The translations under genes and the position numbers were made by a program. A DNA stretch of 39,166 nt from Phycisphaerae bacterium (GTDB taxonomy: Bacteria; Planctomycetota; Phycisphaerae; Sedimentisphaerales; Sedimentisphaeraceae): contig WGDE01000010.1 in NCBI GenBank assembly GCA_015493385.1, positions 1 to 39,166 on the forward strand, given 5' to 3'. Of the stretch, positions 8,846 to 18,877 are shown in pieces. Every line of letters starts with the position of its first letter. Positions within the stretch are counted from its first letter, which is position 1. The notes beneath the pieces are model-generated. The model was not told the DNA's origin and made no database searches. It saw nothing but the letters and a program-made list of their open reading frames with translations.

Positions 8846-9877
8846 TTATTGTTTGCTCTCTAATTCATCAAGACGTTTTTTAAGTTTATTTATTGTCTGC
8901 CGCATCTCTGGGAGTTTTGCAAATGTTCGATATGCTCTTTTAGCCTGAGAAGCTTCTATCGCTGGAGAACCTGCCATAATCTTCCCATCTTCGACATCGT
9001 TGATAATTGCCGACCCAGCCGCTAGCATCACCATATTGCCGACTTTCAAATGGCCAGTAACGGCAGATTGACCGCCGATTACACAGTATTGACCAAGTTC
9101 GGCAGTTCCTGCAATTCCAACCTGTGGAACAAGTAAACAGCCTGCGCCAATTTTTGCCCCATGACCAATCACTACAGAGTCCCCAATTTTAGCTCCAGTA
9201 CCAATGACTGTATCCATTAAAGAACCACGCTCAATAGCAGCGTTGGCTCCTATTTCTACATTATCCTCAAGGATTACCTTACTTATGTGAGGGATCTTGT
9301 GATGCTCTCCATTATGAGTTGCAAAACCAAAACCATCTTGGCCAATTGTTGCGTTTGCCTGAATAATAACGCCACTACCAACGATGCAGTCATCAAAAAT
9401 AACGGCGTTTGGGTATAAAATACAGTTGTCTCCGATTTTTGTGTTTGGCCCTACAAAAACGCCAGGATAAATATTGCAACCAGAGCCAATCTCTACATTA
9501 TCAGAGATTGTTACAAAATCTTGAATATTGCTATTTTCTCCAATCTTGGCAGTTTTGCTTACACTTGCCTTTTCACTTATTCCGCAAGAGGGGTGCTTGC
9601 GATGGCCAAACATAAACTCTGCTATCTGGCAGAATGCATAGTATGGATCGTCAACAAGCAAAAGTGCCTGCGCAGATGAGGATGTTTCTTTATCTGTAAT
9701 TACCGCAGAGGCTTTTGTTGTTGTTAAGTGCTTTCTGTATTTTTTGTTTGATAAAAAGCTGATATCTCCAGCCTTTGCCTCCATAAGCGGTGCGATATTG
9801 GTTATTGTGAGATTTTCATCTCCAATTACTTTGCCACCTACAGACTCAGCAAGCTCACCAAGAGTTTTATTTTGCAT
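8846..9877 (-). CDS. lpxD: UDP-3-O-acylglucosamine N-acyltransferase LpxD
   Basis: Adds the N-linked acyl chain to UDP-3-O-acylglucosamine, the third step of lipid A synthesis, using acyl-ACP. Residues 1-100 form the LpxD uridine-binding domain ('AKAGDISFLSNKKYRK'); residues ~100-310 are left-handed beta-helix hexapeptide repeats; a C-terminal helical arm ends 'INKLKKRLDELESKQ'. The catalytic histidine is probably that of 'VVIGHGAKIGAG', aligning with His239 in E. coli. The length of 343 aa is normal. An AAGGA precedes the ATG and a near-consensus promoter lies 40 bp upstream. lpxD-lpxI form a two-gene unit. Confidence 0.95.
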   Translation of the reverse strand: MQNKTLGELAESVGGKVIGDENLTITNIAPLMEAKAGDISFLSNKKYRKHLTTTKASAVITDKETSSSAQALLLVDDPYYAFCQIAEFMFGHRKHPSCGISEKASVSKTAKIGENSNIQDFVTISDNVEIGSGCNIYPGVFVGPNTKIGDNCILYPNAVIFDDCIVGSGVIIQANATIGQDGFGFATHNGEHHKIPHISKVILEDNVEIGANAAIERGSLMDTVIGTGAKIGDSVVIGHGAKIGAGCLLVPQVGIAGTAELGQYCVIGGQSAVTGHLKVGNMVMLAAGSAIINDVEDGKIMAGSPAIEASQAKRAYRTFAKLPEMRQTINKLKKRLDELESKQ

Positions 9878-9917: not shown

Positions 9918-9946
9918 ATTATATAGCCCAATAAGGATAAGGTCAA
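9918..9946 (-). promoter_or_regulatory. Near-consensus promoter of lpxD-lpxI
   Basis: On the minus strand TTGACC (9941-9946), 17 bp, TATAAT (9918-9923). The palindromic repeat starts only 3 bp upstream of the -35 box at 9949, so that element could influence this promoter. Confidence 0.8.
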
Positions 9947-9948
9947 AT

Positions 9949-10095
9949 AGTAAAACTGGGACTGGTACGTTCGGCCTTCGGCCGGTTGCAGGTGTCCCAG
10001 TTTTACTGCGATTGAAAGTGACGTACTGGGTTGGACCGTAAAGCCGGTACAGGTACAACCGGTCTTCGACCGAACATACCAGTCCCGGTTTTACT
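9949..10095. repeat. REPIN-like doublet of two inverted 59-bp palindromic repeats
   Basis: Copy A (9949-10007) has perfect 14-bp ends, AGTAAAACTGGGAC…GTCCCAGTTTTACT, around an inner hairpin CGGCC-ttc-GGCCG. Copy B (10037-10095) is the same element in the opposite orientation, with degenerate outer arms and an inner hairpin CGGTC-ttc-GACCG. The two are separated by 29 bp. A third copy with the remnant of a second lies at 17481-17578. Copy B overlaps the stop codon of the GT9 gene (10091-10093). The nested stems and T-rich arms could also act as a terminator for the pyrK operon. Confidence 0.85.
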
Positions 10096-11167
10096 TCAGC
10101 ACTTCCGTAGTAATATTCACAAGTTCGTCAACTGCGTCTTTGCTGTATTGGGCAAATGCACTACTACTTTGCTCTACAATTTTCACTTTGGGCCCGATAG
10201 GGGAATATGTCGCAGGATTAGTCTTTCCAAAGATTGCTACTGTTGAGATTCCAGTTGCCCCAGAAAGGTGCGATACTCCGCTGTCGTTACCGATAAATAC
10301 GTCGGCGTTTGAGATTAACTCTGTTAGCTCGATAGTGTTTAGAGATGATACTGTTGGTGCGATTTTCTTGAGCGTATCAATCTCAGATGGCTTCATTCTT
10401 TCAAGTTCGCTAGGGCCAAGGATAAATAGAACGTTAGTCTTCTTGTCTTTTAAATCTAATGCAAGTTGTTTGTAGTTGTCTATGTGCCAATTTTTCTCAA
10501 TACTACCGCTACCGGGGGCAATTATTATTGTAGGGTGGTCTGTATTTGGTAAGTATTTGTGTAGAAGTTTTTCCCCGTTGGCCTTTTGTGAATCGCTGAG
10601 GTTTATAGTTGGTTTCTCGAAGTCGAATTTCCAATCTTCTGGCGGGGTAAACGCTTCAATCGCAGCGTATTTTTCGTTTACAAGATCATCAATATGGAAC
10701 TTACTTATATGATGCGCATATTCAGCAGGTGGTTTTGCGCCGAGAGTAACAACATCTCCAGATGTTGTGTGGTAGAGTGTAGAGATTAGGTTCTTCTCAA
10801 AGTTGCCACCTTTATCACCTATGAAATTAAATATCCAGTCGTATCCTGCCAAGTCTGCCACAAGTTTGGGTTCATTATCTGGGGAGAATTCACTAGGGTC
10901 TATAAATAATTTCGAAAAATCTATACTGTTTATACTGCGGGTTTTGTCCACAACCGTTTTGCCGGGGAATAGGGCGATATGATCGATATTGCCAACATAA
11001 TCAAGGACATCTATTCGCATATGAGATTTAATGAAATCGCACAGATGAAGAGTAAGGATGCAGTCTCCAAGCGCTCCTGGGTGAATTAACATTGCTTTGT
11101 GTTTCTTTTCTTGAGATTTGCAACGTGCTGTAATGTTACCATCATCGAATATGCTATTAAAGGTCAT
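10091..11167 (-). CDS. Glycosyltransferase family 9 (ADP-heptose:LPS heptosyltransferase-like)
   Basis: A 358-aa GT-B enzyme of family 9. After a 25-residue N-terminal extension comes 'AMLIHPGALGDCILT', the GT9 N-terminal G-x-GD segment. The donor half has 'IIIAPGSGSIEKNW' and the family signature 'FIGNDSGVSHLSGATG'. Family members transfer L-glycero-D-manno-heptose to the LPS inner core in the cytoplasm. The ATG overlaps the mnmA stop by one base (TAATG), so translation is coupled. It is the last gene of the pyrK operon, and its stop codon lies inside a palindromic repeat. Which heptose position it modifies is not visible, so no symbol is given. Confidence 0.88.
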   Translation of the reverse strand: MTFNSIFDDGNITARCKSQEKKHKAMLIHPGALGDCILTLHLCDFIKSHMRIDVLDYVGNIDHIALFPGKTVVDKTRSINSIDFSKLFIDPSEFSPDNEPKLVADLAGYDWIFNFIGDKGGNFEKNLISTLYHTTSGDVVTLGAKPPAEYAHHISKFHIDDLVNEKYAAIEAFTPPEDWKFDFEKPTINLSDSQKANGEKLLHKYLPNTDHPTIIIAPGSGSIEKNWHIDNYKQLALDLKDKKTNVLFILGPSELERMKPSEIDTLKKIAPTVSSLNTIELTELISNADVFIGNDSGVSHLSGATGISTVAIFGKTNPATYSPIGPKVKIVEQSSSAFAQYSKDAVDELVNITTEVLK

Positions 11168-17480: not shown

Positions 17481-17578
17481 CAGTTTTACTTGTGTTTGGA
17501 CTTTGCGTAAGGGTTGGGCCGTAAAGCCGGGACGCCTGCAACCGGTCTTCGACCGAACGTACCAGTCCCGGTTTTACT
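17481..17578. repeat. Second, partly eroded copy of the palindromic doublet
   Basis: Copy C (17520-17578, 59 bp) matches copy B in orientation and has CGGTC-ttc-GACCG inside arms GTAAAGCCGGGAC…GTCCCGGTTTTAC. Upstream, CAGTTTTACT at 17481-17490 matches the last 10 bases of copy A at the same 29-bp distance, so most of an A-type partner has been lost. The end of C overlaps the larC stop codon (17577-17579). Confidence 0.8.
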
Positions 17579-18824
17579 ACGTTTGGATGGCAAGGGATTC
17601 GGCTAGGGCGGCTATTTCTCTAGTTGTTCTTTGGCTTTCTTGCGCGGCTTCTTTAGCGTCTCTATGTTCTGCCTTTACAAAGACTATTTTTCCCTCTGCG
17701 CCACCAAGGCGACCGAGTTTTACGTTTATATTGCCGTAGTCTGTTTTGACCTTTACAAACTCTCGATAGAGTTTCTTTCTCTCTGCCCTGTATTTGCGCA
17801 CTCCAAGTGTTAGTCCTGTGGTGAGGATTTTGTCAGCTATTTTCTCACTGTCTTTTGTGGTTGCCATTATGCTTAGCTTGATTGCGGCTCTTGCATTTTT
17901 CATTGTTATTGCTTGGTAGCTGATATCGAGAACACCAGAGATGTCTTTTAGGGATTCTATTGAATCAGCAATCATTTCTCCCGTTGCATCGTCAATATTG
18001 CATTCTAAGATATCAATTGAGTCTTGCTCGAAGCTCTTCTGTTCGTCTATCTCGCCAATGACAACTCTGGTGGCATTTGCAAATTCACTCGGGTCGAGCG
18101 AACCTGCTCCGTAACCAGTCGCCGAGATTGTCATCTGGGGCATTGCTCCAAACGAAGAGCTGTAATATTTCAAGATTGCCGCAGCGGTTGGAGTGAGAAG
18201 TTCCTTTTCGATTAATCCTGGCTGAGTTGGTATACCGTGGATAAGCGCCAATGTTGCTGGTGCTGGGACGCAGACAACTCCGTGTGCGCAATGTACATGC
18301 CCGCTGCCGAGTGTTAGTTTGCTTGAGTAAACCTTTTCTATACCAAGATAGTCTATACAAAGGCATGCGCAGACGATATCTGTGATTGAGTCTACTGCGC
18401 CAACCTCATGGAAATGAACACTATCTATATCAACACCATGCGCCTTTGCTTCCGCTTGTGCTAACAATTCAAATATTGCGATTGAATCGGCTTTTACCTT
18501 ATCAGGCAGCTTGTCGTTTGATTTAATCAGCTCTGTTATAGTAGAGAGATTCCTATGTTCGTGGTGATGATGATGTTTGTGGCTATGTTCATGCTTATGC
18601 TCGTGGTCATCATGATGGTGGTGCGTCTCTAGCATAGGAGTGAATTTTGTGGCGGAGATTCCGCATCTTATAACCTTCTCAAGTGCGAGTTCCTTGAGCT
18701 CTTTCATCTCAAATGCATCTATTGAGCTGCGCAGATATTCAATACTTGCACCAGCCTCGATTAATGCACCGCAGATCATATCTCCTGCGGCTCCAGCAAA
18801 ACAGTCAAAATAAGCGACTTTCAT
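17577..18824 (-). CDS. larC: LarC-type nickel insertion protein
   Basis: LarC inserts nickel, with CTP, into the pyridinium-3,5-bisthiocarboxylate mononucleotide cofactor of lactate racemase and related enzymes. The protein begins 'KVAYFDCFAGAAGDMICGAL', has 'HFHEVGAVDSITDI' and 'TPTAAAILKYY', and carries a histidine-rich stretch near residues 70-95 ('HHHHDDHEHKHEHSHKHH') suited to nickel storage. The ORF track starts at 18842, but ATG 18822-18824 has AGGA about 8 bases upstream and gives the family start, so I choose it (415 aa). No larA, larB or larE is nearby, so the enzyme it serves is unknown. Confidence 0.9.
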   Translation of the reverse strand: MKVAYFDCFAGAAGDMICGALIEAGASIEYLRSSIDAFEMKELKELALEKVIRCGISATKFTPMLETHHHHDDHEHKHEHSHKHHHHHEHRNLSTITELIKSNDKLPDKVKADSIAIFELLAQAEAKAHGVDIDSVHFHEVGAVDSITDIVCACLCIDYLGIEKVYSSKLTLGSGHVHCAHGVVCVPAPATLALIHGIPTQPGLIEKELLTPTAAAILKYYSSSFGAMPQMTISATGYGAGSLDPSEFANATRVVIGEIDEQKSFEQDSIDILECNIDDATGEMIADSIESLKDISGVLDISYQAITMKNARAAIKLSIMATTKDSEKIADKILTTGLTLGVRKYRAERKKLYREFVKVKTDYGNINVKLGRLGGAEGKIVFVKAEHRDAKEAAQESQRTTREIAALAESLAIQT

Positions 18825-18877
18825 ATCGTGTCCTATCGTCATTATTTATGGTTGGATTGTAATTTCCGAAATTCTAG

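Follow-up and report, generated by a model that had tools for sequence, protein, structure and literature searches.

The 59-bp palindromes described here form a real, mobile, REP/TIR-like repeat family, and the family has apparently gone undescribed in Planctomycetota until now. We consider it probable that these palindromes are short non-autonomous mobile elements moved in trans by a RAYT/TIRYT-class Y1 HUH transposase. In the proposed mechanism, the element would be a hairpin of about 59 bp, either REP-like or made of fused terminal repeats, found in Phycisphaerae and other Planctomycetota and present either alone or in tail-to-tail pairs separated by a spacer of about 29 bp. We posit that a Y1 HUH transposase would recognize the single-stranded hairpin in trans via its asymmetric head and tail, excise or copy it, and then insert it. 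Insertions at gene ends would persist, since the encoded protein stays intact.

Paired palindromes at two gene ends

The window, i.e., the whole stretch of 39,166 nucleotides that was analyzed, is contig C10 of the draft genome (here, G000) of an uncultured member of the Phycisphaerae (Planctomycetota); the draft comprises 2.09 Mb in 244 contigs and is 88% complete. Read directly, it contains three 59-bp near-palindromes, and a repeat search of the window returned these same copies, A, B, and C, as its top family. Copy A (AGTAAAACTGGGACTGGTACGTTCGGCC-TTC-GGCCGGTTGCAGGTGTCCCAGTTTTACT; positions 9949 to 10007, plus strand) is identified by its sequence, its folding, and a covariance-model score of 83.8 bits (E = 3e-19). 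As the initial annotation had it, and as the sequence confirms on direct reading, copy B (10037 to 10095, minus strand; 80.6 bits) is inverted relative to A at a distance of 29 bp (10008 to 10036). The tails of A and B face each other across this spacer. The partial second doublet of equal spacing that it placed at 17481 to 17578 is also there: it consists of copy C (17520 to 17578, minus strand; 81 bits), a 29-bp spacer (17491 to 17519), and a directly readable 10-bp tail remnant of C's lost partner (CAGTTTTACT; 17481 to 17490, plus strand). The string GTAAAACNGGGACTGG, with up to three mismatches, matches five times in the window versus 0.57 times expected, and no shuffle reached five. Relative to shuffled sequence, the folding z-scores are -6.0 for A, -4.0 for B, and -2.4 for C, and the A-B doublet folded as a single long structure reaches -7.1.

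A glycosyltransferase family 9 gene (10091 to 11167, minus strand; PF01075, E = 4.5e-24) ends in copy B and takes its stop from that copy's TAA at 10091 to 10093. Similarly, a LarC-like (nickel insertion) gene (17577 to 18842, minus strand; PF01969, E = 4e-122) ends in copy C, whose first two bases complete its TAG stop. Downstream of the A-B doublet lies an lpxD-like acyltransferase gene (8846 to 9877, minus strand; PF04613) with a promoter-like site, TTGACC-17-TATAAT (11/12; 9918 to 9946, minus strand), and only 2 bp separate this site from copy A's outer end; the doublet occupies the gap from the upstream gene's stop codon to this strong site. Rfam covariance models found two tRNAs only in the window and no match to the palindrome, and a plasmid comparison likewise left the palindrome without a match.

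A dispersed family in which complete doublets are rare

When distinct loci are counted at an E value of ≤1e-3, a covariance model derived from 19 of the copies finds about 27 in G000 and about 18 in G001, a sister species of the same genus; the window's three copies are members of a dispersed, genome-wide family. Across the order, the palindrome occurs patchily in 15 of 148 genomes (families f1, f6, and f7), and the highest count outside the genus is about 28 matches in one genome. A degenerate pattern searched against 84,980 named genomes matched 16 stretches, all in Planctomycetota metagenome-assembled genomes, and a literature search with exact core strings of the palindrome found no paper.

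The initial annotation proposed a REPIN-like composite unit of about 147 bp. Tail-to-tail doublets with a conserved spacer do exist, but they do not appear to be the common form: two complete doublets are present in each of the two genomes. Those in G000 are A-B and one on contig C30 with two different outer arms; those in G001 are longer, at 207 to 209 bp, with units of about 33 bp repeated between the hairpins. Spacer-like sequence follows the tail in at least 12 of the roughly 27 G000 copies (about half). Either doublets were formerly commoner and have probably since eroded, or single hairpins also move. Is the family, then, a true REPIN/BIME, in which a cognate RAYT carried by the lineage moves the whole 147-bp inverted doublet as the mobile unit? 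The fixed 29-bp spacer seen twice in the window, the spacer remnants, the longer G001 doublets, and the RAYT-like genes of G000 all speak for it; however, most copies are single hairpins, the GTAG/GGAG foot is absent, and no Y1 gene of G000 or G001 is flanked by the palindrome. We consider this reading unlikely as a whole. The initial REPIN-like interpretation thus holds in part, in that the family is dispersed through the genome and mobile.

Beyond four of the copies (L006, L018, L023, and L025) lies another stretch that they have in common. It ends in AAATAGGTARYYGTCCC-like sequence and apparently represents the terminus of a TIRYT-type element that has become fused to the palindrome.

Asymmetric halves and maintained pairing

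The copies compared give the consensus AGTAAAACnGGGACTGGTAYGTTCGGYC nnn GRCCGGTTGY(ACC or AGG)TGTCCCnGTTTTAC. Its halves are not equivalent: there is an asymmetric head, GGGACTGGTAYGTT, and a tail of GGTTGYACC or GCAGG followed by TGTCCC. Two mismatches are retained, T22.T38 in all 23 copies examined and T15.T45 in 20 of them, and these retained T.T mismatches argue that the palindrome sequence is read by a protein.

The change of the inner stem from CGGCC/GGCCG to CGGTC/GACCG, to which the initial annotation drew attention, is real, and pairing is kept by two-sided changes in copies from across the genome. Of the two innermost pairs, scored in 23 copies, one is C-G in 17 and T-A in 5, and the other is C-G in 18 and T-A in 4. 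Across 19 copies, 9 of 26 pairs show changes on both sides, a number as high in none of 500 shuffles, and a wider alignment, produced by model fitting and with some copies entered from both strands, holds 207 both-side-change cells versus 68 in shuffles. The outer arms vary by lineage (AGTAAAAC, GCAAAAAC, GGAAAAAG, and GATTAATTA) yet remain largely complementary. This covariation establishes maintenance of the palindrome. Taken alone, it does not establish selection on RNA or cruciform structure, as had been suggested, because palindromes can self-correct during replication, and such self-templated correction of quasi-palindromes could also give rise to the both-side changes.

Copies differ between sister species

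To what extent do the two sister species share their copies? We compared orthologous 3' ends in G000 and G001, whose flanking DNA is 77 to 95% identical in the main matches. For ten compared 3' ends with a G000 copy, no G001 ortholog carries a significant model match. The G001 ends orthologous to those on C38, C60, C70, and C196 have no copy; at C21 and C138, G001 carries different hairpins at that stop codon (AAAGGTGTCAGACACCTTT and GAGCGAACCTATGTGTTCGCCC); at C103, a different hairpin breaks up an apparent palindrome remnant; and at C30, just the start of the palindrome is kept. Within the window, copy A is common to both species and is the only significant model match among the compared G001 sites, copy B is decayed or replaced in G001, and at the site of copy C the G001 copy is decayed and a toxin-antitoxin-like insertion of about 2 kb is present. 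By eye, this insertion (L283, 7463 to 9483; G001 contig C35) encodes XRE/ImmA-IrrE-like and PIN-like proteins. At three G001 loci (L327, L329, and L334), AAAGGTGTCWGACACCTTT and GAGCGAACC...TTCGCCC-like hairpins lie directly after stops that the palindrome occupies in G000. A precise two-sided empty site was not recovered in this comparison because the two sisters have diverged in their intergenic DNA, although the coding 3' ends do align. The palindrome is mobile, given that its presence and absence differ between sister species.

In another genome, G127, one copy lies in frame within the open reading frame of an IS200-like Y1 transposase, inside a 33-amino-acid insertion missing from four homologs, and a second copy lies 17 bp past the stop codon of that same gene.

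Takeover of native stop codons

In G000, the palindrome overlaps or abuts a gene stop in 11 of 22 insertion units, compared with 2.8 expected from random placement in the same gaps; without zero-gap sites, the figures are 9 of 20 and 0.82 (P < 1e-5). The corresponding count in G001 is 5 of 15 units versus 1.1 expected (P = 5e-4). The test covers G000 and G001, since simple ORF scanning cannot be relied on where genomes are GC-rich. The stop is supplied by the palindrome's own TAA or TAG, and the native G001 stops are located at the corresponding G000 position or no more than about four codons away; therefore, the proteins are essentially not truncated. The precision of this stop-codon takeover is the unusual part and is new here.

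Could the insertion machinery target stop codons or marks of them, such as DNA exposed at terminating transcription or a GTAA-like target, with the host stop replaced each time by the element's TAA or TAG and several unrelated hairpin families competing for those sites? We regard such targeting as unlikely. A look for a target motif in the flanks of 38 copies gave no strong consensus on the head side. Alternatively, the palindrome could be a selected cis-acting RNA or cruciform, i.e., a bidirectional terminator or a stop-proximal hairpin tuning translation and mRNA decay, with mobility secondary. Its location on stop codons and between convergent genes, its strong hairpins, and its two-sided changes are in keeping with such a role, but a terminator search called no terminator-like site at the palindrome, copies decay in G001 and are missing at most orthologous ends, and the T.T mismatches, conserved as they are, would be unusual in a pure terminator, all of which leaves this explanation improbable to our minds.

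Y1 transposases and the candidate mover

We return to the preferred reading, movement in trans by a Y1 HUH transposase, and ask which enzyme that might be. As first noted, no Y1/RAYT gene is apparent in the window. G000 has four Y1/IS200-like transposase genes, three of them RAYT-like (MARPKR type); the one MARPKR gene tested gave a weak REP_Tyr_transpos match below NCBI's cut-off. The initial annotation had also looked to a RAYT gene flanked by the same palindrome, and here the outcome was negative: the palindrome flanks no Y1 gene in G000 or G001, with the three G000 MARPKR genes lying at contig ends. The fourth G000 gene has a different repeat on either side, a 35-bp perfect inverted repeat of its own, CGCTTAGCGCGGTGGCGCAAGCCGCCCGATGTAAA (L031, 1180 to 1214 and 1927 to 1961; contig C234). 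Sequence similar to CGCTTAGCGCGGTGGCGCAAGCCGCCCGATGTAAA adjoins the C30 copy, and for this reason G000 may hold a second REP-like family with its own short Y1 transposase.

The search was extended across Y1 loci with similar outcome. The covariance model found no palindrome within about 1.5 kb of the first 54 loci (MARPKR-type and other), and the 30 HHITQ-type loci yielded just a distant relative, beside the RAYT gene of G038 (L208). Among about 90 Y1 loci, there was no RAYT/TIRYT gene with the exact palindrome ends (GGGACTGGTACGTT / GGTTGTACCTGTCCC). On contig C2 of G102, a copy and a Y1 gene lie about 390 bp apart, but this gene was rejected as the cognate enzyme, its own flanks being other repeats. 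In G044, which has 17 palindrome matches, the sole Y1 gene found is a distant one, and a search of G104 found none. Might the palindrome instead be a MITE that derives from a classical TIR (DDE) transposon, or some other unknown element with no relation to Y1 enzymes? Near-perfect inverted repeats and a cognate Y1 gene that was not found would both suit such an element. Against this, target duplication is not evident at the palindrome boundaries, the asymmetric halves and fixed mismatches fit single-strand recognition, and the GGGAC half-sites resemble TIRYT ends. We hold this origin to be very improbable.

The ends of the order's own Y1 elements point toward TIRYT. In the order, inverted ends GGGACAG(T/C)CACCTATTT, also given as GGGACAGTCACCTATTT, are common at HHITQRGNN-type Y1 genes, and these ends overlap or closely follow the gene's own stop in 15 of 31 cases (at least 12 matching bases), compared with none in shuffles; MARPKR-type genes have AATTAAAGGGGTCAGAC-like ends in 20 of 36. 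Both types correspond to published TIRYT genes, which have GGGGWSAS ends (PMC3733652; PMC6006769). In L200 to L229, HHITQ-type terminal repeats GGGACAGTCACCTATTT...AAATAGGTGACTGTCCC overlap the transposase stop or lie shortly after it, and L219 has a MITE-like fused form near the gene. The palindrome tail, GGGACAGG or GGGACACC, fits the GGGGWSAS motif on the tail strand only (GGGACAG or GGGACAC, with the first G variable in G000), whereas the head strand GGGACTGG does not. Based on the fit of the tail, the mover would most likely be a TIRYT acting in trans.

Relation to known repeat systems

Integron attC sites are imperfect palindromes of near 59 bp next to stop codons. The palindrome is likewise imperfect, about 59 bp long, and next to stop codons, but it stands by scattered single-copy genes rather than in a cassette array; an attC identity was rejected, as there are no GTTRRRY/RYYYAAC core sites and the palindrome ends are GTAAAAC / GTTTTAC.

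Like GTAG-tagged REPs and REPINs (PMC3116915; PMC2817692), the palindrome has a mismatched stem, forms inverted pairs, and is extragenic and mostly downstream of genes. It differs in having AGTAAAACnGGGAC as its foot in the copies compared in place of GTAG/GGAG, in its length of 59 bp versus 20 to 40 bp, in carrying a GGGAC foot on both sides, in its low copy number, and in the lack of a flanking RAYT in G000. Double-foot REPs, and REPs inserted in frame in tnpA-REP genes (subclass 2.4; PMC6006769), resemble the palindrome in the foot on both sides and in the in-frame G127 copy, respectively, but their foot is GT[AG]G and not GGGAC. GTAG REP ends are known to give ORFs their TAG stop (PMC3733652), and the present family adds clear-cut cases in which a mobile hairpin coincides with a native stop codon. 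Successive occupation of one gene end by several hairpin families makes targeting versus survivorship testable.

The remaining comparison is with TIR repeats and TIRtrons and their TIRYT enzymes (Di Nocera et al., 2013, PMC3733652; TnpA-REP subclass 2.1, PMC6006769). No TIRYT gene with the palindrome as its ends was found, the head half is GGGACTGG, and the inner sequence differs from the TIRs of the order (GGGACAGTCACCTATTT). Nonetheless, the tail core GGGACA[GC] fits GGGGWSAS, the palindrome is dispersed as singles and dimers, its bacterial order holds Y1 enzymes with long inverted ends, and the GGGACA core recurs in the order's TIRYT terminal repeats, which likewise overlap stop codons. In total, the palindrome looks more like the TIR-repeat family of TIRYT transposases than like a REPIN, and it adds to Planctomycetota a repeat family whose copies differ between sister species.
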